Assembly (NCBI RefSeq): GCF_000150955.2
Contig: NC_011671.1
Span: forward strand, 992,001-1,056,000
DNA: 64,000 nt
Reading direction: 5' to 3'
Origin: Phaeodactylum tricornutum CCAP 1055/1
Taxonomy: Eukaryota > Bacillariophyta > Bacillariophyceae > Surirellales > Neidiaceae
The translations under genes and the position numbers were made by a program. The notes under the pieces are model-generated. The model made no database searches and was not told the DNA's origin. It worked only from the letters and a program-made list of their open reading frames with translations. Shown here one piece after another: positions 2,173 through 45,944 of this stretch (position 1 is the first letter of the stretch; each line of letters opens with the position of its first letter).

Positions 2173-3221
2173 TTCGTACTCTGATGGATTACAAATGCTG
2201 TGAATCAAGCTAAGAACCAATCTACCTACATTTTCTACTGTGTTCGTATTCGTCTTTCTGTCACCCTAGCTGTTAATGGTTGTGGCGATGCTGGAAGACA
2301 GGGCGTACCCACGCTGATGGTAAAGTTTGCCAAACGATTGCCATGAGCTTGCCGAATTCCCTATTCTTTTGTGCTGCTAAATTTTGCTGGACAGGGTTGT
2401 CATCAGGTCTTTGGGGCAGTCTGCCAAGCTGTAGCCGATGCAACTAACAACAATCAACTCCCTTTGTACTCGGACTTGCTCCTAGCTGTAACAAAAGCAA
2501 CTGTAGAGCTATTTTGGATGACACACATTCGGTTCAGAAACGTAATATGCCACATTAAAATTGCGAGTAGTTAATAGTTTTCATCTATCCTGATCACGTA
2601 CGACTTACCGCGGTCTATGGCCCCCAGCATAAACCAGGACATAGAATGTGCTGAGAAAGTGCGTCTCAAGATAAGATTTGCTTTTCAAGCAGAATCTTTG
2701 TCTTTAACTGTGAATGCGAATCGGAGCGTGAGAAGGTATTACGCGTCAAGCTCGTTGTTTTATGTAGGCAAAAGCTATGACAACATACCTATTGCAAACC
2801 GCCTCTGACTGTGGACAAGGCCTGATATGGATGCCGAAAACCTACTCACGTGACTCACTGTAGCTATCAAGTTTTTTTTCAGTTAAAGAACGGTTCGAGT
2901 CATGATTGACTGGGAATTTGCACTCGTACGGCGTTCCAGCGCAGAATAGCTAGGAAGTATATTTTGCTACACGCATATTTTTGGCAGCGCAGCCGACAAT
3001 TTGGACCGCTTGTCTACTTGCGTATATCCCTTTTTCCTTCGTCTGTCTCTACCCTTCTCATTCATCGTTTCTTCTGACGCCTTCCTACGCACTGACTGTG
3101 AAACCTTCGACTTCCACTCTGAGTGACTGCGAATGCGGAAACTATAAGCGCATATGTTGTGAAGCTCCCTAAACCCACCAGACCTTGCGAATATTGAAAC
3201 GACACAGTAGGAAGCAGCGGA
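2173..3221. other. Intergenic region, no gene recognised
   Basis: About 1 kb between two plus-strand genes. Short open frames (2371-2574, 2617-2808, 2981-3172) lack domains, and I see no tRNA cloverleaf. A TSACWGTSA-type palindrome lies at 3093-3101, about 120 bp before the ABC transporter start. Confidence 0.55.
3093..3101. promoter_or_regulatory. TSACWGTSA palindrome upstream of ABCC gene
   Basis: TGACTGTGA, one of at least 14 matches to a degenerate palindrome found between genes in this window. It lies about 120 bp before the first ATG of the transporter. Function is inferred only from recurrence. Confidence 0.35.
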
Positions 3222-6200
3222 ATGTTTCCTTTGTTGTCGTCGACTTCTCCTAGACGCTCTAGATGTAAAACGATAACAACCACATCGTTGCAAACGCCGT
3301 TCTTGATTCGTATGGGGTTTCTCTTTTTATTGACCCTAGTGGTGCTGCCTCGGGCGGCTCCTTTTGCTTCGGGGTCGACGGCGGGGGCGGCTTCCCAAAG
3401 CATGCATCGTTCGCCGCCGCGACAATCACAAATTCCTGCAACACAGCAGACACCTGCTGCATACCCGACATCACGGCAGCATTCAGTTGGAATGGCGGCA
3501 ATCACCTCTGTCGAAACAAAACCTCATTCGTTGCGAGATTTTTTTCGTCGAGGCGGCAAACAACCGAACCACAATCGCTACGACTTGCCGAGCGACCAAT
3601 CCAAGGGAGGGGAAGAGAAAGCTTCTTTTGCTTCCCAACTGTTTTTTCAATACGCTTCGCCCCTCATTCACAAGGCTTCGGAACGTCGATTGGAAGCTGA
3701 AGATTCATTTGAAATCTCCGAGTCACAGAAAATGGATCACGCTGTCTCGGGTCTGGCGTCAGTTTATCGGGAGCTGAGGACTCGATCGAAGACTCGTCAA
3801 GAGCAGAAAAATGTGGACAAAGCCGATCATGGGACGGAATCACAATCACTGACATTGACCAAAGCCTTGCTGTTGCATCAAAGACGAAATCTAATTGTGA
3901 CAGGGCTGTTGCGCCTTCTGAATACGTCCATTCAGGCATTTCCGGCTGTTCTGGTCTCTCGTCTCCTCAAACTTATCGAAGCCGGTGACACACACGCGCC
4001 TGCCAAGGCCCTCCAAGCTGCCGTCACTCTTGTCGCGGTACTTAGCATCAAAATGCTTGTGGAGAACCAGTACTTCCACAAGGTTGTTAAATGCTCAACG
4101 CAAGTGCGCGGCTCATTGGCGGGGCTGATCTTTGACAAGAGTCTGCGACTGCCTGGTGGGGGCAGCGGTGTCACGCACAAGGATGGCAACGGCGAAACGT
4201 CCGCTCTTGGTTCCGGAGGTGTCCTCAATTTGATGCAATCCGACGCAAGTTTGATTGAAAGTGCCGCCTTACAGTTTCATACCACATGGGATGGCCCGCT
4301 GCAAATTGCCATTTACACATACTTGCTGTACCAGTATTTGGGGTCGTCTGTTTTCTGGGGGATCAGTGTCTTATTGGCCACAATTCCGATCAATAGTGTC
4401 ACATTACGCATCCTTAATCGACTCGCCAAATTTGAGAATGAAGCCAAAGATAGGCGCACCAAACGTACGGCCGAGTCTATCAGCAACATGAAGCTACTTA
4501 AACTTCAAGGCTGGGAGCAACGCTTTGCGGATGACATTCGTATACATCGGAAGGAAGAACTTTCCCGACACGTTTCCCGTGGTATCGTTCGAGCTGTGAA
4601 TACGGCTGTTTCCAACGCTGTTCCAGCCTTGGTGTTGGTCGTAACGTTGACTGCCTACGCCAAGACTGGACGTCCAATCGTGGCGAGTACCATTTTTACA
4701 GCCATTTCACTTTTCAATCAACTACGATTTCCACTATTTTTTTATCCAATGCTCATTGACTCTCTCGCGAATGGCAAAAACGCAATGCGACGCATTTCGA
4801 CGTATTTGTCATCCGAAGAAATTACACCATACGTGAATTTTTTCCCGACTGTCGACGGTACGGGTGGCTCAATTGAAATGACAAATGGTAACTTTCTGTG
4901 GTCGTCGACAAGGTCCATAGATGGAAATACTACGTCAATTTCTCCAGCCTTGTCCAACGTCAAACTAAAGGTATACCCTGGAGAAGTAGTTGCAGTGGTT
5001 GGAACCGTTGGAAGCGGTAAAAGCGCACTCATTAGGGGCTTACTTGGCGAACTGAATCCAGTGCCGCGAACAATCATACAAGAAGCGTTGAAGTCCGAGG
5101 GGCAGGAGTCAGTCGGAGACGGCGTTCTTGACCGAGCAACAGTGATTACGCACGGGAACGTCGCTTATTGTTCGCAAGAAGCATGGCTTCCGAAAGGCAC
5201 GCTACGGGATGCGATTGTGTTTGGACGGGAGTATGACAAAGATCGATACCGAGCTGCAATTTATGATGCAGGGTTGGATAAGGATATTGTGAATGATGCC
5301 AGCCTCGCGGATTCGACGGAAGGTATTTTGAGCCATGACACCGATGTAGGCGAAGGTGGATCCTCTCTCTCCGGTGGACAGCGAGCGCGAGTGGCTCTGG
5401 CTCGGGCCTTGTACGCCGGTGACGATACCAAGGTATTTCTATTGGACGATTGCTTGTCAGCTTTGGACGCAAGTGTTGGCTCGATGGTATTTGAACGAAT
5501 CACTGCTCGATTGCGAAAAACAAACGCCGCGACCGTTCTAGTCACCAATGATCCGTCATTGCCAAGACGTTGTGATAGAGTGTACTTAATGGGCAAGATT
5601 TCGAGTTTTGGCTCATGCTCAACAATAGTGGACAATGGAAGCTACGATGATCTTCTATCTCGCGGCCACAACCTGAGAAGTATCTCAACTGTCGAATCAA
5701 ATTTTGGAATTGACAAAAAAATTGATTCACAGTCAGGCAGTCGTGTTCATTCTGATGCGGGAAGCGCTGTCGATAATATGATTGCTGCTCAACCGACAAG
5801 GGAGGAGAGGAGAACTCACGTAACCGGTGTTTTGGAGGAACCCACAAACGCAACAGATATTAAACAATGGCGCCATGCCGATCCAGAGTGTCAAATAACG
5901 ATGGAAAATTGCCCAGATTATATTGCTGATCAAAGTGCCGATCGCACAACGTCTGGACAATATCAAAGCAGAGATGAGCTGACTGATGGCGAAAGAGAGA
6001 AAGTATTCCCTGTATTCGCCGCAAAAGGTTCTATCGTTGGACCGGGTCATTTCAAGGATACCAGCGCTCTCGCAGACGACGAGCGTCCCTTGATGTCCTC
6101 TAGTGTCACGAAGTTAACATCAGCGGATGATTTCATGTCAGCAGGAGCAGTTCCACGATCCACATATGTAGCTTACTTCAAATCGGTGAGGAAACCAATT

Positions 6201-8075
6201 CTTGTTTTTGCTATGATTGCTTCCTATTTAATGGCAAATGGCGCACAGTTTTACCAGCAATATACGGTTGCGAAATGGACTGAGCTTTCTCATGCCGATG
6301 CCATGGCGGCTGCTCTCGGAGCCAAGTATCTGCGTTCCCTTGTGAATGCTGCGGGCGTCGTTTCTGTCTTCTTATGGTTCCGAAGCGTTTTTACTATGCA
6401 AGTTGGTGTCCGTGCATCAGATTTCTTTCACTCTCGCATGCTGTCGTCGGTTTTTTCGGCCCCAATGTCGTTCTTTGACGCAACCCCTTCGGGTCAGATT
6501 TTGTCCAGATTTGGAAAAGAAATTGAGACTGTGGATCGAGGAGTGCCAGATAGCATTGGGTCAGTTCTTTTCTGTTTCCTACAAATCTTTATGTCAATTG
6601 GTGCGCTATCTGCTATCATAACGCCTGGAATGCTTGGTCCTCTAGGTATTGTTACATATATGTATATCAAGACTATGGCGAAATTCCGCCCGGCAGCTCG
6701 AGACATGAAACGAGCCGAAACAAAGACTCGGTCGCCAATTTACACGCAATTTGGCGAGGCACTTCGAGGTACAGAGACGATCCGTTCTATTCCAGGCGCG
6801 AAGCAGACTTGGTCCTCGAAGCATCGCTCATTGTCTGATCAAAACCTTGGAGTATTTTACACGGTGAAATCCTTCGATCGTTGGCTTTCAACCCGGTTGG
6901 AATCACTTGGCAATACAGTCGTCTTTACGGCAGCAGTTGCCTCAGTCTTCTTAACTCGCGCTGGCCGGATGGAAGCTGGATCAGCAGGCTGGGGTCTCAC
7001 GCAGGCTCTTGCAATTACCGGTCTACTGACATGGGCGGTCCGCTGCTTGACAGATCTAGAGACTAGTATGATGAGTGTCATGAGAGTCAAAGAGCTGACA
7101 GATTTGGACAGAGACGAAGTTGATGTACCCGGGCAAACGTCGAAACGCATGCCAGTCGAACCTTCCAATGCTGGTGACGCACTGATGCCGCTTCTTCCAG
7201 AATCTGTACACTTCAACTCAACACTGGCCCCGTTGGATAGCAATGTCCTCTTGAAAGATGGATGGCCCTGGAAGGGCAATGTTATTTTTCGAAATGTTTC
7301 AATGAAGTACAATCCGTCATCGCCACTTGTTCTTCGTTCTGTAACGGTCGCAATACCGGCAGGAACGACACTCGGGGTGGTCGGACGAACGGGATCAGGA
7401 AAGAGTTCCCTTCTTTTAACTTTGTTCCGACTAGCTGAGATAGAGAGTAACGGCTCAATTGAAATTGATGGTGTGGATATTCGATCAGTCAGTTTGGAAA
7501 CGCTGCGAAGTTCGCTTGCGATAATTCCTCAGGATCCTGTTCTATTTGCTGGTAGTATATCATATAATCTGGATGCCAGTGGTAACGCAGAGCCGTCAGA
7601 AATGTGGAATGCCTTAAAGGCTGCCTCGCCAAGTCTCGCACGCCAATTTATGTCGACAGGTGGTCTCGAGTCCCCAATTTCAGAAGGTGGAAAAAATTTA
7701 AGCCTAGGACAACGACAGCTCATCTGCCTAGCACGGGCCTTGCTCCGGCAAAGTAAGATTCTCGTCTTGGACGAGGCTACCAGCAGCGTGGATTCGAAAA
7801 CAGACCAAGACGTCCAGGAGACCATCCGTCGAGAATTCGTTGAGAAGGGCGTGACAGTAATCACCGTAGCTCATCGTTTGGATACGGTGCTGGGTTACGA
7901 CAAGATTGCTGTACTTGGAGCGGGAAGAATGCTAGAATATGGAGCACCAAACGAGCTTTTGCAGAAAACCAGCGGCGAGCTTCGACGCTTGGTCGATGCT
8001 GATAGACTCAGCAAAGAAAAAGGTTCCAAGCAACAAGCATCAACTAACAATAAGGTCCCGGCGGGGCTTATGTAA
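3222..8075 (+). CDS. ABC transporter, subfamily C (MRP-like), full transporter
   Basis: 1617 aa, intron-free, with order TMD1-NBD1-TMD2-NBD2. ABCC proteins export conjugated organic anions or drugs. NBD1 has Walker A GTVGSGKS near residue 594, signature LSGGQ near 715 and Walker B ending LLDDC near 740. NBD2 has Walker A GRTGSGKS near 1388, signature LSLGQ near 1494, Walker B LVLDEA near 1515 and the switch His in VAHRLD. NBD1 looks catalytically degenerate: the Walker B Glu is Asp, usual for ABCC, and its H-loop reads VTND with Asn instead of His. A linker of about 150 residues, unusually long, separates NBD1 from TMD2. A second possible start (ATG at 3312) would begin with a strongly hydrophobic signal-like stretch; which start is used is unclear. 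Confidence 0.9.
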   Translation: MFPLLSSTSPRRSRCKTITTTSLQTPFLIRMGFLFLLTLVVLPRAAPFASGSTAGAASQSMHRSPPRQSQIPATQQTPAAYPTSRQHSVGMAAITSVETKPHSLRDFFRRGGKQPNHNRYDLPSDQSKGGEEKASFASQLFFQYASPLIHKASERRLEAEDSFEISESQKMDHAVSGLASVYRELRTRSKTRQEQKNVDKADHGTESQSLTLTKALLLHQRRNLIVTGLLRLLNTSIQAFPAVLVSRLLKLIEAGDTHAPAKALQAAVTLVAVLSIKMLVENQYFHKVVKCSTQVRGSLAGLIFDKSLRLPGGGSGVTHKDGNGETSALGSGGVLNLMQSDASLIESAALQFHTTWDGPLQIAIYTYLLYQYLGSSVFWGISVLLATIPINSVTLRILNRLAKFENEAKDRRTKRTAESISNMKLLKLQGWEQRFADDIRIHRKEELSRHVSRGIVRAVNTAVSNAVPALVLVVTLTAYAKTGRPIVASTIFTAISLFNQLRFPLFFYPMLIDSLANGKNAMRRISTYLSSEEITPYVNFFPTVDGTGGSIEMTNGNFLWSSTRSIDGNTTSISPALSNVKLKVYPGEVVAVVGTVGSGKSALIRGLLGELNPVPRTIIQEALKSEGQESVGDGVLDRATVITHGNVAYCSQEAWLPKGTLRDAIVFGREYDKDRYRAAIYDAGLDKDIVNDASLADSTEGILSHDTDVGEGGSSLSGGQRARVALARALYAGDDTKVFLLDDCLSALDASVGSMVFERITARLRKTNAATVLVTNDPSLPRRCDRVYLMGKISSFGSCSTIVDNGSYDDLLSRGHNLRSISTVESNFGIDKKIDSQSGSRVHSDAGSAVDNMIAAQPTREERRTHVTGVLEEPTNATDIKQWRHADPECQITMENCPDYIADQSADRTTSGQYQSRDELTDGEREKVFPVFAAKGSIVGPGHFKDTSALADDERPLMSSSVTKLTSADDFMSAGAVPRSTYVAYFKSVRKPILVFAMIASYLMANGAQFYQQYTVAKWTELSHADAMAAALGAKYLRSLVNAAGVVSVFLWFRSVFTMQVGVRASDFFHSRMLSSVFSAPMSFFDATPSGQILSRFGKEIETVDRGVPDSIGSVLFCFLQIFMSIGALSAIITPGMLGPLGIVTYMYIKTMAKFRPAARDMKRAETKTRSPIYTQFGEALRGTETIRSIPGAKQTWSSKHRSLSDQNLGVFYTVKSFDRWLSTRLESLGNTVVFTAAVASVFLTRAGRMEAGSAGWGLTQALAITGLLTWAVRCLTDLETSMMSVMRVKELTDLDRDEVDVPGQTSKRMPVEPSNAGDALMPLLPESVHFNSTLAPLDSNVLLKDGWPWKGNVIFRNVSMKYNPSSPLVLRSVTVAIPAGTTLGVVGRTGSGKSSLLLTLFRLAEIESNGSIEIDGVDIRSVSLETLRSSLAIIPQDPVLFAGSISYNLDASGNAEPSEMWNALKAASPSLARQFMSTGGLESPISEGGKNLSLGQRQLICLARALLRQSKILVLDEATSSVDSKTDQDVQETIRREFVEKGVTVITVAHRLDTVLGYDKIAVLGAGRMLEYGAPNELLQKTSGELRRLVDADRLSKEKGSKQQASTNNKVPAGLM

Positions 8076-8196: not shown

Positions 8197-9793
8197 TCAA
8201 TCGTAAATGGGGTCCCATGTCCACAAGTTGATCAACCATTTTTCTCCATCCGTGACAGGTTTCGCCGCATGGTGGGAGAGCTGGAAGGAGTGGATAACGA
8301 AAACAGTGAGAACAAAGCGAACAGAGGACACGCTGCAGTCTTTTCATTTACTGACTTACATCATCAAGATTACCGTCAGGAAGTTGGCTGTAAAACAAGA
8401 CCGCTTTGCCGACTTCGGGTTTGATGGATAGTTCATGAAATGTTTCTGCATTCGACCATCGTGGAAAGCTCGTTTCTCCTCCTGTCATGCCCTCATTCAA
8501 GTACAAAAGTAAAGTTCCAAAGCGGGCCCCTTGAAACTGATCATCGATGCGCGAGAAGCCGAAGTCATGATGGGCCGTGTACTCTTGGCCGGGTCCATAG
8601 TGAACCAGTTGTAGCTGTTCTGCCAAAGGCTTGGTAGAAGTCAAGTTGGTCCATTCGGTATGGTCGCTACGATGACGGAGGAGAGCTTCATCAATGCGCA
8701 TGACGTCGGCAGCCCGCCGGTAAATTGCGTCGATGATCGGTGACTTTTCGCGCGGTACCCAAGAGTTATAGGAAGTTCGTGTGCGTCGGGAGTCTGTCTG
8801 TAATTCTTTGGGTGTTTCCTTGTGACCAGTTATGTCACCGGTAGACGAGAGTTTGAGATCAACACCCGAAGCAAGTTGCACAATATGCTCAACTTCCTGT
8901 CGAGATAGGAAGTTTTCGATTTCGAAGGCCCTAGGTGCGCAGGACAAGACTTTCAAAGTCAGATTCATCGTCGAAGCACCATCGCGATACTCATGCAACA
9001 TACGAGGTTCCGAGTCTTTCAATGCACGTTTAGATCCGTGTGAGAGGATAGGCTCCAGAAGAGACTTGTCTTCCGGAACTGTCTTGAAATGAGTCTCACG
9101 AGTTTCGACCCAATGAGTTTGTCCAAAATAGTCAGCTCTCCACATAAAATGCATCGGTGGATCTCGCAAGTAATTAGCTAAGTAGGATCGACCTGTAAAG
9201 TTACGATACTGTTCATGGAACGACAATGTCTTGCGCCAATGTTCGTACTTCGCACGATCGTCACTACTCAATACCTCCAGGTTTGCCGCTGTCTGCTGCG
9301 GATCGCCTTCCACTATGTAAGGATCGTACACGTATAAGTTTTCAGGGTAGCTTTTCACAATCAATCGAGTCAGAATTTTTTCTTTGTCATCGATTGGAGT
9401 GAAGACGAACGAATGTCCCGGAAAGGTGGCTGTCCCTGAAGCTGTGAACCCTTGATGACGCCGCATGATGTGCTTCGTACCACCAAGAGTTGCTTCCCAC
9501 CATAGATCGACCGTATCTCTTCCCAAATTAATAAACTTTCCTTGAAAGCCTTTGAATACCGGTGTTACCTTGGTATTCGCCGGGGCATCTCCTTGGTAAA
9601 AGCTCGTTATGTCGGGCTCAACGTACACCCACGTCTCTTGCGGTCCGTCACCCACATCGTACTTCATCAGCTCCAGAGCGGGATCGCGTTCGTCATCTTC
9701 CGTCCAGGAGCATGTCAAGGGCTTTTGGGAACGTACACTCTTCCAAAGACCAAAGACCACGCACAATATGTGGAGATTTCGACGGGCAACCAT
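8197..9793 (-). CDS. Prolyl 4-hydroxylase-like 2-oxoglutarate/Fe(II) oxygenase (2 exons)
   Basis: Minus strand, exons 9793-8360 and 8280-8197, intron 8281-8359 (79 nt, GTAAGT...CCAG); 505 aa. The N-terminus is signal-peptide-like, so the protein enters the secretory pathway. The C-terminal catalytic domain shows the HxD iron ligands at His408 and Asp410 (in YTAHHDFGF). After the splice, the third ligand His482 is followed ten residues later by the 2-oxoglutarate-binding Lys492, as in collagen-type prolyl 4-hydroxylases. Without the intron the frame would stop just before this second half-site, so splicing is needed for activity. The first 300 residues are unassigned but include a tryptophan-rich stretch. 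Probable role: hydroxylation of prolines in secreted or cell-wall proteins. Confidence 0.85.
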
Positions 9794-35729: not shown

Positions 35730-37328
35730 CTAATCAAACTTGGTCCCTTTCACGTTAGGTTCACTTGCGCCATAGAGATGCCAACAAGAAGCGAGCCATG
35801 CCAACGAACAAAACGCGCAACCAGCGATACTCCACAATACAGAGAAGACATCCGGTAAGTGGGGCGGAATCGTCACACCCAATTCCGTAAAGTGCAAAAG
35901 CAGCATCACCAATCCAGAAAAATGCGGAACCCATCGCAATAGTGGTAAATGTTCCAAGAATCCCGATGTAGATGCTGTCGATCCTTGTTGTAGCGAGTGT
36001 AGCAATCGCTGTAACATAATGAAAATAATCATAATACAGGTGTATGCGACTTGCAGACGATCAACAACCAACAATGGCCATAGTGTCCATGCTGCAATGA
36101 CGGAGAACCATTGCACAAAGGTCGCATCGTCAAAAAACAACAGAGAAGCGGGGCCCAGAGCCAAAAGCAAACTCTTTTCATGCACTTGAAAGCTTGCGAG
36201 GAAGAATGCGAGAGCGCTACTAGTGGCTCCGTATAGAATCAGTTTCCCCTGATGCTGTTCATTGTCCTGCTGTTGCTTCTGTCCTAGTCGAAAGAGTCGA
36301 TAGCAGGCAGGTGCCGCGAATATCAACGTTAGGAGTAGGGCCGCAAGCGGCTGCAGCTGTGAGGGTATGAGTTTGCGGATCCGGATTGGCTTGAGCGAGA
36401 GGACACACCACAGATTGGACACTTTGCCTTCAAACAGACCCCGTTGTAAGGGAATAATACGCCGAAAGACGTGCGCAGCTCTTTCGATGTGAGATGTGCC
36501 TTCCGGACCAAACGCAACAAAGGGCCACCACAAGGCAAATGTCGTAGCAACAACGGTCATCCCTAAAAGATAGAAGCGCTGTACCAGGAAACGACCGCGG
36601 GTTGTGAAACACCGTCCAAGCAGGTAAAAAAATACGGCTGGGGCGTAGTAGAGCGTCATTTGTTTAAAGGAAAGCGCTGCACAAAACATGAATGAGCCAA
36701 TCATGCAATAAAAAAAGTCTGGCAACGTCATGAAATAAAATGCCCATAGTGATAGTCCCAGTGCTGTTGTATTGTATTGGAAGTGGCCGTGGTCGATGAG
36801 TAGAATTGCCGGTTGCGACATGGCGAGAGCAAATCTCCACAATCGCGTCGAGTCGGGAAGATTGCGGTCGTATTGGCGATGCATTGTCCAAAACCAGACA
36901 GCCGTCCCGTAAACGAGAAGATCCAGCACGATCACCGTTGACCGCATGAATGCCTTGTGCGTCGGATTTTCGAAACCTCGAGAAGTTTCTAAAGCTACAG
37001 ATTCCGGGCCGACGAGCCGATGCGAAAGCCAGCCACAAATCCACGAAACGTAAGCTGATATCGGAGGATAGTCCAACCCCCAGTAGCTGAGATCGTACCA
37101 GTACCATTCTCCAACCGGGAGATGAAGTGTGAGCTCCATCCAATGCCGCTGGGCCTCAAAGTCTCCTCCATAGGCCGAGTGCAAGCCATGGTAATTGTCC
37201 TGTCCCGAGTGAGGGTGGTATCCAACCAAAACGCGAAGCAACACCAGCCCCGCAACGACTGCAACAATCAAGCTGGAAGATGTCCCCCCGCCGGTATCTC
37301 TGACGCTATTAAGAGATGATCGACTCAT
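35730..37328 (-). CDS. ALG6: Dolichyl-P-Glc:Man9GlcNAc2-PP-dolichol alpha-1,3-glucosyltransferase ALG6
   Basis: 532 aa from ATG 37328. ALG6 adds the first glucose to the lipid-linked oligosaccharide in the ER lumen during N-glycosylation. Hallmarks are GDFEAQRHWMELTLHLP in the first luminal loop (the Asp and the EAQRHW block are typical of ALG6/ALG8), YWGLDYPPISAY, ILIDHGHFQYN, SFKQMTLYYAP and LASFQVHEKSLLL. About 11 hydrophobic segments fit the multi-spanning family. An in-frame ATG exists at 37457, but it lies inside the terminal repeat of the adjacent transposon, so the downstream start is the native one. The transposon end is only 94 bp from this start and may have replaced or altered the promoter. 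Confidence 0.93.
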   Translation of the reverse strand: MSRSSLNSVRDTGGGTSSSLIVAVVAGLVLLRVLVGYHPHSGQDNYHGLHSAYGGDFEAQRHWMELTLHLPVGEWYWYDLSYWGLDYPPISAYVSWICGWLSHRLVGPESVALETSRGFENPTHKAFMRSTVIVLDLLVYGTAVWFWTMHRQYDRNLPDSTRLWRFALAMSQPAILLIDHGHFQYNTTALGLSLWAFYFMTLPDFFYCMIGSFMFCAALSFKQMTLYYAPAVFFYLLGRCFTTRGRFLVQRFYLLGMTVVATTFALWWPFVAFGPEGTSHIERAAHVFRRIIPLQRGLFEGKVSNLWCVLSLKPIRIRKLIPSQLQPLAALLLTLIFAAPACYRLFRLGQKQQQDNEQHQGKLILYGATSSALAFFLASFQVHEKSLLLALGPASLLFFDDATFVQWFSVIAAWTLWPLLVVDRLQVAYTCIMIIFIMLQRLLHSLQQGSTASTSGFLEHLPLLRWVPHFSGLVMLLLHFTELGVTIPPHLPDVFSVLWSIAGCAFCSLAWLASCWHLYGASEPNVKGTKFD

Positions 37329-37421
37329 ACTGGCTTTGCTGCATCGCCCGGTGTCGTTTTTTACAGTGTTTACCAACACAAAGCATTCTACTAGTGTGCT
37401 TCTCCGATACTGTTTAGGGAG

Positions 37422-37472
37422 ACCAGGGAAATCCCCGTGACGTAGGGTAAGTGACACAAGTAATCACAAATA
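37422..37472 (+). repeat. Left outer terminal inverted repeat of the MULE
   Basis: 51 bp beginning ACCAGGGAAATCC, matching the complement of 43924-43974 with one difference at 37435. It contains the TGACGT core. A degenerate direct copy follows at about 37473-37511 (39 bp, sharing CGTGACGTAGG and GGTGACACA-type blocks). Confidence 0.85.
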
Positions 37473-37511
37473 TTTGTGAAATCTCCGTGACGTAGGATAG
37501 GTGACACATAC

Positions 37512-37647
37512 GGGGAACATTGTATGGCCAGAAATCATAAGAATCAAATCCTTTCATGGGACTCCTAAAACGTCGTTGAGGAAACGTTCTTTTACCCGTT
37601 TCTTTCTCAAGTCTGTTCACTGCCGAGCAGGCACAGCCGTTGCACAA
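37512..37647 (+). repeat. Left inner inverted repeat of the MULE (136 bp)
   Basis: Matches the complement of 42411-42546 at 135 of 136 positions (T/C difference in TATGG versus TACGG). The transposase ATG follows 46 bp after its inner end. Confidence 0.9.
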
Positions 37648-37693
37648 TAGGCCGTGTGCTAGCTGTGCACTGCTTAATGTAGCATTGTGAATC

Positions 37694-40600
37694 ATGGCTG
37701 AGACCAAAAATAGAATTGCCGCAGCTTTGGCTTTTCCTTTCAATAAGACAATAATGGATGGTATTCTAAAGGACGTACTAGACCAATGCATTGCAGACAA
37801 GAAAAGGTGGAATACAGTCAGCATTCCTTTTCCAACGCAAAACGGAGAAGTAAATTTATGTGACTACATTGGTTTTGATTGCAGGCTCCTTGGGGAGTGT
37901 TTTGTCTTTCCAGATCAATACAACTCAAGTTCAAAAGAAACCAGAGCTAGGTTGGCTAAAGCTCTAAAGATTGCTGCAGCTGAGGGTAAATTTCCCCTTG
38001 TTGAGCAAGGATGGGATGAAAAGAAGAAACAAATCCGTTTTGAGTGCTTTCGAAGCCAATCACACAGTGAGAGAACATATCAGAAAAGACAAGGGACAAG
38101 CTTCCCCAGAGAAGACGCGAATGCATGTAGTACTTCCTCTAAGCGGCCGGACAAAGGGAAAGAATGCCCATTTCACTTTTATCTCTACTGGGTTCAAGAG
38201 GAGAGGCATTGGTGTCTTTTTGGTGGCACAAGGGGGAACTGTAACTCTCACTCTCATCATTTGCCAATGGAGCCTCATGAAGTAAAAAAGAGTATTGCCT
38301 ACATCAATGGCCACAAAGTCCAAATTGCGCTGGATGCAGCCACAAGCAGTGCACCACCTAGTGTTATTGGAAAAATGCTCCAGTTACAAACTGGCAACAT
38401 CTTGTTGGACTCTTCTTTGCAACACATAAGGATGCGGTTGGGAAAAGAGCAAGAAACAGTGTTGCTCAAGGATGAAGAATTCATGATGCAGGCAGACAAG
38501 CTTTTGTCCTATCTTGAGAACACTCCCGAGATCAGCTTTTGTGCTATATACAATGACCCAGATTCACCTCTCTTCACAGTTTACAAGCAGAGAGCAAAAA
38601 AAGACCACAGGCGTCTACACACAAGTATTAGAGTTAACTCCGGGGTATCTGCTGTGTCACGATATACACCACTGTACACCGTGGGACAAAATGCTGTTAG
38701 AAACAGAGGATGGTAAGACTTGTGGGCGTTATTACGAATGACCTGCAATACACCTAAGCGGGCTTAGGGACTGTAAAACTCTACTTGCTGGCGACGCTCC
38801 CCTCGGGTTAGGCAGCGGATACGAGGACCTATGCAACAAAGGCAGTACGGATCAAAGAACTCAAAAAACAATGATAGAAGATTAGATTCTACAAACTAGT
38901 GCCTTTTGTCAGATCATATCCAAACTTGACTGCAGTCCTGGCAACTTCACCAACTAAACCTGAATCTTCCATGCTCACCATAGTATCCATATAATGCAAA
39001 ATCCGTTCCTGCATACTTATCAAGGAATTGTAAGTATCTCTTGTAACACACATGGTATGAAAATTGGGTCTTGTCAATTTGCATCTGTTTCCCTTGTGTT
39101 TCCATCCAAATGACTCTTTCCGTTGAATCCAATTGATTCCTTGGAGTTTTGGTGCAACTCAAGTCTCCATACTAACCAAGAGCCTTCTCAAAGTAAGTAG
39201 GGAATACTGCAAATCTTTGCCCATGTATCTTCTCACTATGCCATAATTACATAGGAATGCATATAATAAGGCCAATTCCACTGACATGTACACAACTTGC
39301 AGTAAACATGTATACACTTGATTTCTGCTTGTGACACACTTGTTTTGAGATAAATGTCTCAAAGACACACAGGACGGGTATATACCGTGAGATGCTGAAA
39401 CGGGAATTCTTGACAACACTACACTAGATGCAATGGATCCCAATGGAGAACTTGATGACTATGTTGACCGCACACGTTGCGCATTCAAGCTCCTTGGCTC
39501 ACAAAACATGCTGTTAGGAGTTGCCTGGACAAATAATGAGAGCAGAAATGTATTCTCTCGTTTTTCGGAGATAATGGTAGCAGATGTGACGGAAGGCACA
39601 AGCAACGCCAAGCGACCGCTATTTCTATTCTCTGGGAAGATGTCAAACCAAAACACTTTCACAGCACTGTGGGCTTTTTTACCACAGCAGGCTTGTTGGG
39701 CCTTCCATTGGGTGTGGACTTGATGCATACCGCAACTACTCCCAAAGCAAGGAATTCAACATGCACCTGACAATAACAGATGGAGATCCAAAAGAGTACA
39801 GGACCTTTGTAGATGCAATACCAACTTTCTACCCTCTTTGCGAACACAAGCTTTGTCACTGGCATCTACTGTATCGCAGTAATCTCATGAAGGTGCAGAC
39901 TGGAAAATGTGGAGTTAAAGCTACTATTCTATTCCGCGTAGTTGTTCTTTGGATTGAGAGCTGGATGACCAAAATTGAGACACAAGAGGAATACGAACTT
40001 TCTAAAAGGCTCTTGGCTGATTGGCTTGCAACCCCCGAAGCTATTGATGTCAAATTGGGTGGTATGGGGCAAACTATTGTATCGCAAATTAATGCGTACA
40101 TGACACTGTCACTTTTTCCTCATGAACAGCGCTGGGCTAGATATCGCTATTTATACACACAAGCATTCAACACATCTGCAAGCTTGTATGCCGAGGCAGA
40201 AAATAGTGCTTTAAAACGATGGGGCGACGGGGTCAGGCCAAGCTTTTCCGTACCAAAAGCAACTCAGGTTATAAACGAAGGGACACAACCTAGGTCAAAG
40301 AAGAGGCATCAAAAAGCTGTTTACAATTTAAATGCTGCCAAGACGAGAAAGCCTGCCTACTATGCAAACATTGGGGATTTAGTGGATTACATTCAAGATT
40401 CTCTTTCCAAAGATTTTGAAGCAGCTGCTTCATTTGTGCTCTTCCGTCCAAATGCAGACCAGTTTTGGGTCAAGCAAGCCACTTGCAAAAGCAAAAACAC
40501 GGACATTCGGAAAATCAACAACAGTAGCTATTACAAGTACATGATTCCGCAGTTTGAACGCACACGAATTGTGGAGCTTGTTAATATTGATGGTACATTC

Positions 40601-41392
40601 TATTTGGTGTGTAGCTGCGGAAAATTTCAGCGACAAGCTTCCCCATGTGCCCATCTTTACAAGGTTCTTGGTCAATCACCCACGTCAACCGATGTCTCTG
40701 TACGCTGGACAAAGCACTGGGATGTGTATTTGCACCGAAGTGGCCACAGTGACCTGTCAAAGCATTTGGAAGACCTGTACAAACAGGAGCGACCAGGTCC
40801 AGTATTTGTTGATAGTGGTCAGTGGGTGATCGGAAAAGGTGAAAAAGGGTCAAATTTTTTCGAAACTTCGCTTCCGTACAAGCCCCCTGTCATACGAGAT
40901 TTTAATCGATGGGCAGTGTCTTCGCAAACAACTGGAGCTGATTTGAGTGGGACCAAAAATACCACAAATATGTATTTTTCGAGTGGAATGGTGCAAGAAT
41001 CAACAAGCCTGTCCAGAGAGCATGCATTCCAGGATTCATTGCATTAAACTTCCACAAATTCGCAAAATTCGGATTGTTTTGATGATACACAGGCAGTGAC
41101 AACGGAAAGCGTATCTTCTACGAAAAGAATGTTTGGCTCAAGTGCTTTTGTGCACAATTTCCATTTCTACCAGGAAATGTCCAAGCTGGCAGGATTTGAT
41201 ATGGAAGCTGCTGAGTCGATGAATATAGCTATGCAAGAAGCATTGGAAAAGGTACAAGCCAATGTTGCAAAAAGGGCTGGGAAGATGGATTACACTATAG
41301 GACCAGCCATTACAAAGGACCGTGTAGGTCTAGGATTGAAGCCAAGCTACAGTCCAAAGAAGAGGAGGAAACCAAACTTACAAAGGAAATGA
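37694..41392 (+). pseudogene. MULE transposase, frame-disrupted
   Basis: First part 37694-38712: a CPFHFYLYW...HSH zinc-finger region (FAR1/Mutator-type) and a helical segment with the DPDSPLF block; the frame seems to change once before a GTAAGA donor at 38713. A presumed 714-nt intron ends at 39426. Next, 39427-39723 carries the first DDE block (ADVTEGTSNAKRPLFLFSGK). A frame change between about 39680 and 39755 leads to 39761-41392 with ITDGDPKEY, the C/H block CEHKLCHWH and a SWIM finger CSCx9CAH at about 40612-40653. An in-frame TAA at 41045-41047 interrupts the C-terminal tail, after which the same frame stays open to 41392. About three defects mean this copy is unlikely to make full transposase. 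Plain DNA transposon, not a retroelement. Confidence 0.8.
38889..39162 (-). other. Antisense coding-like fragment inside presumed transposase intron
   Basis: Two overlapping minus-strand open frames rich in Tyr, Phe and Trp (38947-39162 and 38889-39077), which look protein-like and related by a frame shift. I do not recognise the family. It may be a small piece of another gene or element within the intron. Confidence 0.25.
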
Positions 41393-41593
41393 AATAATTT
41401 TACTTACAATTACTGATTTACATTAAACAATACAGGCGTTCTTCACTAGTCTGTAAGCCGTGATCATACCACCAACAAAACTCCCCGCACAATATATCTG
41501 CCAGGCCAAGGCAACTTGCCAATACACTATTACAGCCATGCCGTCCACACCACCAAATCTCTACTGGAACATGTGTCGGAACCAAGGGAACAA

Positions 41594-42409
41594 CTATACA
41601 AAGCCTTGCCTCCGTGGCCATTGGTTGAAGGGAAACCATTCTTGTGTACAATTCCAAGCGTAGCCTAAGGTATTGTCCAACAAGCATTGCACCGGTAGAT
41701 TGTCGCTTTTCTGTATTTTTTTGTTGATACACGCCAGCAAAACCTGTGTGTCCTTTACCATGTTTGGTATACTTGCGTTGTCGGTTTGATTGACCGACGG
41801 AATTCGATTCGTTGCCAAGGCTCGGGCCAAGACAAAGTCGGCGTCCAATGAGTATTGCGCATTGATCTTGGTTGGTGCGTACACCATGGCGGCGCGGCAA
41901 GCGTGTGGAGCCATCCCGTGTAACGTGTCGCAGAAAAATTCTTCAATCAGACTGCGTTTCTCCGTCGGCACGTGAAAGTTGACCATGGTAACGTTGGAGT
42001 CCGTAGGGCTTGGTAACGTTGACGTACCACATGACTGTACTGGAACAGTGAGAAATTGCTTTAAACACTTGTTCCACTTCTTTGGCGTGGGCATTGGGTA
42101 CCTGAGTGGGGTGCAACTTCTGCAGAGCATCCAACCGCAAGGCCGTACTCAACGATCAAATGGACGGTTGACGACTTCGGTGATATGGTAAGGGCCAAGG
42201 ATAATGGAAAATATTGACTGCAATTACAGACTCCGGGGCCCGCGCTCGCCTTTCGGCACGAAAGACCAAGCGGCACACTACAGGACCGTATGTTGTCAAC
42301 GCAAAGTAAACAGAGGCGATCACAAGATACAAACACATCAGTCCTTGCACCAAAACTGCATCGTACGAAAAGTAAGCAACACCAGCATGTACTTGATCAT
42401 GATAAATGC
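41594..42409 (-). pseudogene. Second MULE reading frame, convergent with transposase, decayed
   Basis: Minus-strand coding-like sequence begins just inside the right inner repeat and runs towards the transposase 3' end. Pieces in different frames (42482-42156, 42152-41943, 42130-41594) read as one protein if frame changes are allowed: a hydrophobic segment near the start, then a soluble region with Cys and His. No known family is recognised. Two genes starting inside opposite ends and converging is the MuDR layout (mudrA and mudrB), so this could be the equivalent accessory gene or unrelated captured DNA. Confidence 0.4.
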
Positions 42410-42410
42410 T

Positions 42411-42546
42411 TTGTGCAACGGCTGTGCCTGCTCGGCAGTGAACAGACTTGAGAAAGAAACGGGTAAAAGAACGTTTCCTCAACGACGTTTTAGGAGTCCC
42501 ATGAAAGGATTTGATTCTTATGATTTCTGGCCGTACAATGTTCCCC
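42411..42546 (-). repeat. Right inner inverted repeat of the MULE (136 bp)
   Basis: Inverse partner of 37512-37647 with one mismatch. Unlike the left side, where only 39 bp separate inner and outer repeats, 1377 bp separate it from the right outer repeat. Confidence 0.9.
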
Positions 42547-42894
42547 TATTTGCAGTTATTTTTGCGTTTTGTATCTGTAAATGCTGTCTGACGTGCAGGC
42601 TTTTCGATTCAAACAAAAAACGATTATTTTCATGCCCAATTGCCGAGCGCCCCTTGCACATTTTATTGATGAGCTCTACAAACGCAAGAACGCGAATGAT
42701 GGAAATCGATGAACTAATAAGAATTATGAGTCGATTGAGAATAGCTATTTTGTTTGTATGGCTCGGAGACACTCTCAATGACTGGTTTGAATGGCAATGA
42801 CATGTTTGAAATGTCAGCGGGAAGACTAATATGCCCGGTTGGCGTTCTTGTCTTCTAAGTACTTGTGATTTGAATCGGGATTCTATCAGTAGAG

Positions 42895-42939
42895 CCGTAA
42901 CTGATAGGGTAACTGTCATCAGTACCGTAACTGATAGGG
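42895..42939. repeat. Short tandem repeat, 30-bp period
   Basis: CCGTAACTGATAGGG occurs at 42895-42909 and again at 42925-42939, 30 bp apart, with a looser related CTATCAGT before it. It lies in the extra DNA between inner and outer right repeats. Confidence 0.6.
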
Positions 42940-43035
42940 ATAGGATGATTGGGCTCGATATTCATATCAACACATTTGTACATTCTATTTTTCAGGAAAA
43001 GTAGTCAGCCATTACCAGTCTCCTCTTTCAATCTG

Positions 43036-43560
43036 ATGAGGCATCTTTTCGGCATTAATCCATGACATTGACGACAATTGGAGTTCCTGACGACACATTG
43101 GAGTTCCCAACGCACAGCTGGTGAAGGAAAGCAGGAAAATTGCCACGTTCTACCAGGGGAAGAGTGTCGCTGAGCAGAACACCGTGGATCTGCTGTTTGC
43201 AAGACGACAGCTTCAAAGGCCTGCAAACCGCCACTTTTCCACGGACGTGGAGAATGCCCAGTTCCGACATTTAGTGGTCAAATCAGTCATGGCAACGGAC
43301 ATGATGAATCCGGATCTTGAAGCCGTTCGTAACATACGCTGGGAGAAGGCCGTCACAGCCTTCACGGCAGACCCAATTGTACAGGAAGACTTGTAAAGGC
43401 ATGACAAGCCGCAATGCTACAATTGTGATCTATCACCTGATCCAGGTCTCTGATGTCGCATATGCAATGCATCACTGGCACATTTCCTGGAAATAGAATA
43501 AGTGACTGTTCCTGGAGATCTACCAGGTGTACATAGCGGGTCAAGCGGAAAAGAGATGAC
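43036..43560 (+). pseudogene. 3',5'-cyclic nucleotide phosphodiesterase fragment inside the MULE
   Basis: Decayed piece of a PDEase_I catalytic domain. The order of family blocks is kept: FSALIHDID (metal-binding HD motif) near 43048-43074, IGVPNAQLVKE and then YQGKSVAEQNTVDLL around 43093-43198, FRHLVVKSVMATDMM with the RNIRWEKA block around 43262-43356, and after a frame change ATIVIYHLIQVSDV and MHHWHI from about 43413 to 43485. Stops and frame changes follow. A 20-bp near-duplication (GACGACAATTGGAGTTCC, then TGACGACACATTGGAGTTCC) splits the HD motif from the next block. It is a host gene fragment, so its position within the transposon ends implies capture. Confidence 0.75.
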
Positions 43561-43923
43561 AGCTTCAATGACCTGCAAGTTGCTTGTCTAATAAAAGAAG
43601 TGCAGGTCAATTGCAAGGGGGAAGTTCTGGCCTGGCCTATCTTCAAAGCTGTGTCACATTTGTTTGTAGTCAATATTACTGGCATCATGGGTAAAAAACT
43701 TGCATTGTTAATGCTGCCATGTCATACATACAATTCTATAAAAAAACATTTCATACATACACAACTACATCACCTAATTTCGACCAGGAGATTATGGGCC
43801 TTTCCTCAGCAAGGTTAAACCTTTTGTTCTGCTAGATTGTAAAAGGGTTTATTGTTATTGTACCTTATGTTACACGCCGATTTGATCTTGTCACATCTCG
43901 AAAAATTCATCGTTTCGTTGCGT

Positions 43924-43974
43924 TATTTGTGATTACTTGTGTCACTTACCCTACGTCACGTGGATTTCCCTGGT
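43924..43974 (-). repeat. Right outer terminal inverted repeat of the MULE
   Basis: Inverse of 37422-37472, 50 of 51 positions identical. It defines the right end of the element. Confidence 0.85.
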
Positions 43975-44635: not shown

Positions 44636-45944
44636 ATGCAGAACGATGTCGTTACACCTCGGTTCTTGTTGGGTAGTGTCGACCAGTTTCCGGTATGCCG
44701 TCACTTTCGGGGAAGATACGCGCTCGGACTTCTGTTTATTGTTCTGGTATCCATTGTTTGGACGGTATCTTCTGTATTGACGCAATTCCTCTATAGCGTT
44801 GAATCATTCGATTCCCCCTTTCTCATGACCTACCTGGGAGTTTGCTTGTTTTCGCTTCTATTACCGCTCAAGATGCTTACTGACCACGCCGGTTACACTG
44901 AAGACCCTTGCTGCTTAGCCACATTCGACAAGTTTGACGATGAAGAGGTACACCCCACAAGATACACAGAGTTTGGCGATGGCTCTTCCATCCGCACAAG
45001 TGGTTATCAGGCTTCTACAATGAATGAGCAGTATTGGAGTCGTACAAAACATATCGAAGCTGCTATGCACATAGCTCCTGTACTTTTCATTGCTAACTGG
45101 GCTTTCAATGCCGCACTGGGTTCCACTTCGGTTGCTTCTAGCACTGTATTGGTGTCAACCTCCAATGTGTTTGTCTTTGTCCTTGCAGTCTTGCTCAAAG
45201 ACGAACAGTTTAGTATCTGGAAGCTTGCTGGAGTCATCCTGGGCGTGATGGGGACGTGCCTGACAACTCTCCATGACTTTCAGAACCACGATCCGGATGA
45301 TTTGGCCGATGATTGCGCCGTGGACGGGTGTGACCACGTTGTTTGGGGTGATACTTTGTCGCTGGTGGCTGCAGTGGCCTATGGGGCCTATGCAGTTCAA
45401 GTGCGCGTCCTGTGTCCAGAGAACGAGGACCTGTACAGTATGCAACTTCTCTTGGGGTATATTGGTCTCATCACCTTGTTGCCGCTGCTTCCCTTTGCCG
45501 TGTACTTTTGGCTCCAAGTAGATATGACAACCTCTGTCTTGAGTCTAATAGTTGTGAAAGGTGAGCTGCCATACGACTGCCGGAATTGAATGCACATGTG
45601 TTTTTTACCTTACAGATTGTGGCTTATTGATATGGACAGGAGTGTTTGACTTTGTAATCAGTGAGTGGTTACACTTTCGTGCAGTAGTATTAACAAATGC
45701 TACCACTGCGACTGTTGGTTTAGGATTGTCAATCCCCTTGGCTTTTTTCGCTGACTGGGTAGTCGGTAAGGCAAATATCGCTTCACCGCTTTCTCTCATT
45801 GGAGCTGGTGCAGTCACGATCGGATTTCTAATGGTAAATTTAGGCAACAAAATGGAGATGCAAGAAATAGAAGTACCTGCGCCCACCACGAATGATATTG
45901 ATGTTTCACAGATAAGGCCAAAAGAGCTGCCATCCATAGACTAG
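44636..45944 (+). CDS. DMT-superfamily transporter, SLC35F5-like (2 exons)
   Basis: Exons 44636-45560 and 45616-45944, intron 45561-45615 (55 nt, the shortest here, GTGAGC...TTACAG); 417 aa. About ten hydrophobic helices in two EamA-like halves, with a hydrophilic insertion of about 60 residues after the second helix. The conserved WAFNAALGSTSVASSTVLVSTSN segment and LAGVILGVMG match the SLC35F3/F4/F5 group, vacuolar or Golgi-type carriers of uncertain substrate. The splice restores VKDCGLLIW and the second half's FADWVVGKA. It does not look like a triose-phosphate or nucleotide-sugar translocator of the core TPT family. Confidence 0.87.

Follow-up and report, generated by a model that had tools for sequence, protein, structure and literature searches.

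Contig C3 of the diatom Phaeodactylum tricornutum contains a decayed phosphodiesterase (PDE) fragment that was captured by a short transposable element with terminal inverted repeats (TIRs). This carrier is a Pack-MULE-like element: the mechanism is ordinary and the host is unusual. The window that we analyzed is 64,000 nucleotides long (C3:992001-1056000, from a genome of 27.45 Mb in 88 contigs). The direct evidence comprises the fragment itself, a 5' edge that its copies share, the TIRs, flanks that are unrelated from copy to copy, the clade that the copies form, the parental genes, decay that looks neutral, and later insertions. We consider it highly probable that the fragment was captured once and that the carrier was then copied in trans, most likely by a family of the type that we found on contig C4.

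The PDE model PF00233 matches the forward strand of the window at 42971-43306 (E = 2.2e-9; 40.9 bits, with a cut-off of 24.8 bits), and three TGA codons lie within this match. The same model had matches in 0 of 14 control genomes. On the basis of the PF00233 search, we rejected chance PDE-like words as the source of the signal. The original prediction described an ordered but decayed series of PDEase_I blocks, and the alignment contains all six of them in sequence, from FSALIHDID to MHHWHI. In the alignment, likeness to the parental genes spans approximately 43041 to 43555. The first 70 bases of the PF00233 match, 5' of 43041, are probably alignment spill, since that region does not convincingly resemble any PDE locus among the 18 compared: the best tblastx hit has E = 0.016 over 12 residues, and the parental residues that precede the 5' edge had no tblastn match at E = 10. 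At the DNA level, 43094-43555 has 79–80% identity to four open-frame PDE genes (on C29 and C54) and 72% identity to a PDE gene on C14.

At its 3' end, the fragment is fused to a short second PDE-like piece, and this join is common to the window copy and the copies on C12 and C13. The second piece in C13 corresponds to parent positions 1802–1849. For C3 and C12, a 25-nt repeat and the alignment suggest that the same piece is present. As had been predicted, the repeat coordinates place the fragment between the right inverted repeats of the inner and outer elements. The near-identical 51-bp outer repeats are real as well: 58 nt match at 93% and 51 nt at 98%.

Table 1. Features of the nested elements and the captured fragment, in window coordinates.
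Feature	Position	Strand	Remarks
Outer PDE-carrying non-autonomous TIR element	37417..43974		About 1.2 kb minus later insertions
Outer element, left TIR	37417..37472	+	Inverted repeat; match to C12 element
Second, subterminal copy of TIR core	37478..37508	+	Repeat comparison in window
Inner MULE, inserted in outer element, not the carrier	37512..42546		136-bp TIRs, 99% alike
Inner MULE, left TIR	37512..37647	+	Inverted repeat
Inner MULE, transposase region, first part	37694..38716	+	Broken by repeat from 38655
738-bp solo-LTR-like repeat within inner MULE	38655..39392	+	TGCTG on both sides
Inner MULE, transposase region, later part with SWIM zinc finger	39761..41047	+	PF04434, 22.1 bits (cut-off 19.6)
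Inner MULE, right TIR	42411..42546	-	Inverted repeat
Solo-LTR-like repeat (307 bp) inserted in outer element	42664..42970	+	C12 copy lacks the repeat
Captured decayed PDEase_I fragment	43041..43555	+	Frameshifts, stops, 21-bp tandem duplication
Short second PDE-like piece, fused to fragment 3' end	43554..43578	+	25-nt repeat, 88%
Outer element, right TIR	43924..43974	-	Last 5 bases unrecognizable

The carrier is in three pieces in the window (37417-37511, 42549-42663, and 42971-43974), which match a 1,224-bp element on C12 (C12:464467-465690). The C12 element includes the fragment and a TIR at each end, with neither the inner MULE nor the 307-bp repeat. The longest stop-to-stop frame in this copy is 119 residues, so the carrier has no transposase of its own. 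The window copy has lost its right tip and is probably immobile. With its reading frame also broken, it appears to be inert now.

The inner element belongs to the MULE superfamily: it has the transposase domain, the SWIM zinc finger, and long TIRs. In the copy on C9, where the corresponding frame is not interrupted by the 738-bp repeat, PF10551 scores 30.9 bits (cut-off 27.6). This copy and two others, on C1 and C25, are about 4.3 kb long and 97–99% identical to the window copy, and all three lack the 738-bp repeat, which has many copies in the genome, some of them as direct pairs. The C1 and C25 copies have an identical right flank of 421 bp; the left flank is not common to them. The 307-bp repeat has 34 matches. 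In 10 of them, including the window, 267 bp or more of the 307 bp are aligned with an identity of 96% or above (96–98% at the nine places other than the window). Direct pairs of this repeat lie 5.3–5.4 kb apart on C1 and C24, which is a spacing like that of LTRs.

The original prediction placed the fragment inside a single MULE that moves with it. Capture by a TIR element held up, and the transposase-bearing MULE as the carrier did not. If the inner MULE had captured the fragment, then the outer repeats would be its extended ends, which would fit where the fragment is located, with the right inner repeat on one side of it and the right outer repeat on the other. But the copy on C12 has the fragment and the outer TIRs with no inner MULE; the inner copies on C9, C1, and C25 have neither an outer TIR nor the fragment within 1.5-kb flanks; and the sequences of the inner and outer TIRs differ. 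We rejected the inner MULE as the carrier because of the C12 copy, and we give this explanation almost no weight. The prediction had also named, as an outcome that would speak against capture, that the outer repeats might belong to a different element. This is literally true, yet capture stands because the fragment is part of that outer element.

It had been suggested that we look for other copies of the element, and these exist: the fragment is found between the same ends at four loci, namely the C3 window, C12, C13, and C8, and the C12 copy is free of both inserts. The copies on C12 and C8 are bounded by TIRs at both ends, as is the C3 copy, whose right tip is lost. The third copy, on C13, has one clear end and a degraded left TIR. 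The fourth copy, on C8, is 2.9 kb long, with 234-bp arms and about 2 kb of extra interior. According to blastn, the 5' edge of the fragment is at parent position 1679 in C12, C13, and C8. The blastn match for C3 starts at parent position 1711 because this copy has a 21-bp tandem duplication that displaces it; the aligned edge is the same as in the others. We compared 1 kb of flanking sequence to the left and right of each copy and found no mutual homology. With four copies that have the same junction and unrelated flanks, the fragment has moved with the element. Separately, a solitary carrier end, roughly 200 bp in length, lies at C13:712133 (extracted-locus positions 1477–1714), between 21-bp direct repeats that are much longer than the usual target duplication.

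A different origin for the fragment would be a tandem or segmental duplication of a PDE gene that was later hit by transposons. The genome has numerous PDE-domain genes, several of them clustered (on C54, C55, C56, and C17, with three near-identical genes on C54); a repeat that is also present in the inner MULE lies between the PDE genes on C54; and there are short pieces next to the C12 copy that resemble sequence 3' of the C29 gene. These points speak for duplication, but the four loci have a common edge, common TIRs, and a common order, with no flank homology, and they form one clade. Also, neither blastn nor tblastn found the cyclase part of the parental genes in 15 kb of the window or in 10 kb each at C12, C13, and C8, and blastn found no match to the portion of the PDE domain before the edge in these same regions. 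We tested the upstream tails of the tblastn matches at C12, C8, and the window, and they were unsupported. The prediction had raised the possibility that the fragment is joined to a larger PDE gene outside the element, and these searches found no cyclase remains near the copies. Given the lack of flank homology and of cyclase remains, we rejected segmental duplication, which we view as very unlikely.

The short pieces beside the C12 element (extracted-locus positions 6015–6068, 6331–6420, and 8326–8408) correspond to sequence immediately 3' of the C29 gene, and not to that of C54a. There are three of these matches, with 54–93 bp aligned at 74–83% identity, in both orientations, and 0.3–2.7 kb outside the element. 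They are perhaps a small dispersed repeat.

To return to capture by the carrier, the parental genes are in the genome. PF00233 has 31 matches in the genome, of which 29 exceed the cut-off. The parental gene on C29 encodes Guanylate_cyc and PDEase_I domains in one long uninterrupted frame. Among the 60 listed of the 92 solved sequences that match its product, those that match the first domain are adenylate or guanylate cyclases, and those that match the second are PDE4. Of the 3,202 proteins that match the C29 product, the 120 with the best matches include some from Epithemia, Seminavis, Fistulifera, and Mayamaea, which are diatoms. The prediction was that an intact multi-exon PDE gene in the host genome would be the donor. 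There are indeed parental genes in the genome, but instead of a stand-alone multi-exon PDE, the donor is the C-terminal domain of a cyclase-PDE fusion.

The phylogenetic tree has 22 rows: the four carriers and 18 PDE domains. Thirteen of the 31 PDE model matches were left out, namely nine that are partial or broken, three that are copies in the transposable element, and one without a locus. The three transposon copies are represented in the tree via other loci, and some of the partial matches may be intron-bearing genes. The C8 copy is outside the 31 model matches and was added via its DNA match. The four carrier fragments form one clade (100/99), including the C13 row (TE_C13), which occupies 45% of the columns. 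This clade is sister to the four intact cyclase-phosphodiesterase fusion genes, which are the C29 gene and three C54 genes (100/98), and the C14 gene is next (97/93). The topology implies that the capture occurred after the split from the C14 gene and that the captured sequence came from the progenitor of the C29/C54 genes or from a sister gene that has since been lost. The single clade and the shared 5' edge suggest one capture followed by spread. The claim that a fragment of a host PDE gene was captured is borne out by the four copies with the same junction, their unrelated flanks, the single clade, and the identified parental genes.

The copies differ in how far they extend at the 3' end: C8 reaches parent position 2247, while C3 and C12 reach 2171. 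Judging from this longer 3' part, the original capture was probably longer than the fragment in C3 and C12, and C3, C12, and C13 have a later rearrangement in common. The extra interior of the C8 copy (extracted-locus positions 3020–5060) is made up of a high-copy repeat of about 0.8 kb and another 1.2 kb or so with a relative on C27. C27:166461-167694 is the only relative that we found for this part (82–84% identity), and a Pfam search with eight frames from the C8 interior gave no family above the cut-off. It is possible that the 1.2-kb part is a second captured sequence.

With about 80% identity to the parents, the capture is old. To describe its decay, we consider how differences are distributed across codon positions. 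In all six carrier pairs, the differences are spread evenly across the three codon positions (p = 0.52–0.81), while differences between the C29 and C14 genes are strongly biased towards the third position (p = 2e-11). Third-position bias is also seen between genes and carriers (C29 and C12, p = 0.003; C29 and C13, p = 0.014; C14 and C12, p = 3e-5). C29 versus the C8 carrier is flat (p = 0.61), and C29 and C54a have just nine differences (p = 0.10). From this pattern, the fragment has been pseudogene-like since before the copies split. Could the captured fragment be functional today, for instance as a source of small RNAs that target the cyclase-PDE parents? A review describes the sequences captured by maize Helitrons, Pack-MULEs, and Sireviruses as siRNA reservoirs (PMC13317346), but the identity to the parents of about 80%, the broken frames, and the neutral-looking differences make a present function highly improbable for this fragment.

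We then considered what might have moved the carrier. A pattern for the carrier tip has nine sites in the genome with three or fewer mismatches, and the reversed pattern, as a control, has none. Six of the nine sites belong to the carriers or to the lone end at C13:712133, two are on C4, and one is on C16; the search missed the right end of the C3 copy and both ends of the C13 copy. The C4 sites are an inverted pair 7.1 kb apart (C4:1043060-1050171) that match 27 and 25 of the 28 fixed positions, and the C16 site matches 26 of 28. Alignments of the C4 and C16 tips to the carriers have scores of 43–58, as compared to 26 or less in 1000 shuffles for each of nine aligned pairs. The likeness of the C4 TIRs to the carrier is limited to the outer 30–40 bp or so.

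The C4 ends enclose an open frame of 850 residues with a MULE domain at 24.6 bits, which is below the cut-off of 27.6. A 233-residue piece of this frame matches MULE at 23.2 bits and ZSWIM1-3_RNaseH-like at 23.4 bits, both below the cut-off. Against the inner MULE, the same piece has 40% identity over 94 residues and 30% over 118 residues (E = 7e-29 for the linked pair). The C4 element is known from 701 bp and two 181-bp tips.

A target site duplication of 8–11 bp is one textbook mark of a Pack-MULE. We found no exact 8–11-bp duplication at C12, C8, or C4 (the right tip of the C3 copy is lost). The C12 carrier has an exact 6-bp duplication, AAGACT. For the inner MULE, none of the four copies (C9, C1, C25, and C3) has an exact 8–11-bp target duplication. 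The C9 copy has an imperfect 11-bp match (8/11), which is unlikely to be a target duplication in such a young copy. Because this mark was not found for the carrier, its safe name is "Pack-MULE-like". The missing duplication does agree with the table row for "MULE-Diatoms" in PMC6446971, which reads "No TSD and not indicated".

The carrier might instead come from a non-MULE superfamily of TIR elements, with the likeness to the C4 tips being due to chance or exchange. The lack of the canonical MULE duplication, the 6-bp duplication at C12, and the restriction of the C4 match to the tips are all compatible with this idea. On the other hand, the tip match is far above the shuffles for both C4 ends and for one C16 end, the C4 ends enclose a MULE-like frame, and the "MULE-Diatoms" row of PMC6446971 has the entry "No TSD". 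So we think that a non-MULE origin is unlikely.

Our preferred explanation remains a Pack-MULE-like carrier. In a single event, a short TIR element without a transposase would have taken up a portion of the PDE domain from a cyclase-PDE fusion gene, which was either ancestral to the C29/C54 genes or a sister of theirs that no longer exists. The capture would have occurred at the DNA level, by template switching or by gap filling during repair. The parental frame is unbroken across the captured part, and introns cannot separate the DNA and RNA routes. A MULE transposase acting in trans, most likely from the family of C4:1043060-1050171, would then have spread the element to four or more sites. 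Another MULE and LTR-like repeats inserted later into the window copy. Five points count against this explanation: no exact 8–11-bp duplication was found, the C4 likeness is confined to the tips, the C4 frame scores below the MULE cut-off, the C8 copy has an odd structure, and short matches to the C29 3' region lie outside the C12 element.

Gene capture of this kind is best known from land plants. Like the plant Pack-MULEs covered in PMC6446971, the carrier is bounded by TIRs, lacks a transposase, contains a host fragment whose parental gene is elsewhere, and has several copies and a putative transposase-bearing relative in the genome. It differs from them in its diatom host, in that an exact 8–11-bp duplication was not found, in the old age of the capture, and in that the window copy is broken. 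The animal Pack-TIR elements of PMC8277862 are also similar in that a captured fragment is present in multiple copies and was spread by transposition, and an origin by fork stalling and template switching has been proposed for them. That study reports no Pack-MULEs in its animal reference genomes, while the carrier ends described here are MULE-like.

Within the table of PMC6446971, MULE-Diatoms (group 37) has a stramenopile host, SWIM, and TIRs of 123–124 bp, which resembles the inner MULE with its SWIM and 136-bp TIRs. The row does not list a host-derived insert. A precedent outside the land plants is MULE-Cc (group 36, in the Jittery sub-group), whose row mentions "various inserts, potentially host derived". 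MULE-Cc differs in that these are red-algal elements and the row does not name a parental gene. Two distinct Mutator-like families were reported for the P. tricornutum genome (PMC2806351), and the words capture and TIR are absent from the main text of that paper. We found no earlier report of a diatom Pack-MULE in the open-licence literature. Our searches there turned up nothing to contradict the view that MULE capture was undescribed in diatoms.

As for the genomic setting, the left neighbor of the nested elements is an ALG6/ALG8-type gene (35730-37457, minus strand) whose open frame enters the left TIR, and the right neighbor is an EamA-type transporter frame (44636-45589). The nested elements are probably in the upstream region of the ALG6/ALG8-type gene.

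The carrier provides a traceable stramenopile case in which a MULE-type transposon captured part of a host gene, with the parents, the junction, and four copies, so gene shuffling by MULE capture is open to diatoms. It is also a test case for how MULEs that lack the usual target duplication capture and insert. More tentatively, diatoms may harbor a MULE lineage whose insertion leaves no classical target duplication and which nevertheless picks up and amplifies host coding sequence. Capture would then be a property of the MULE superfamily as a whole rather than a specialty of plants, and the C8 copy may be a chimera of two captures.
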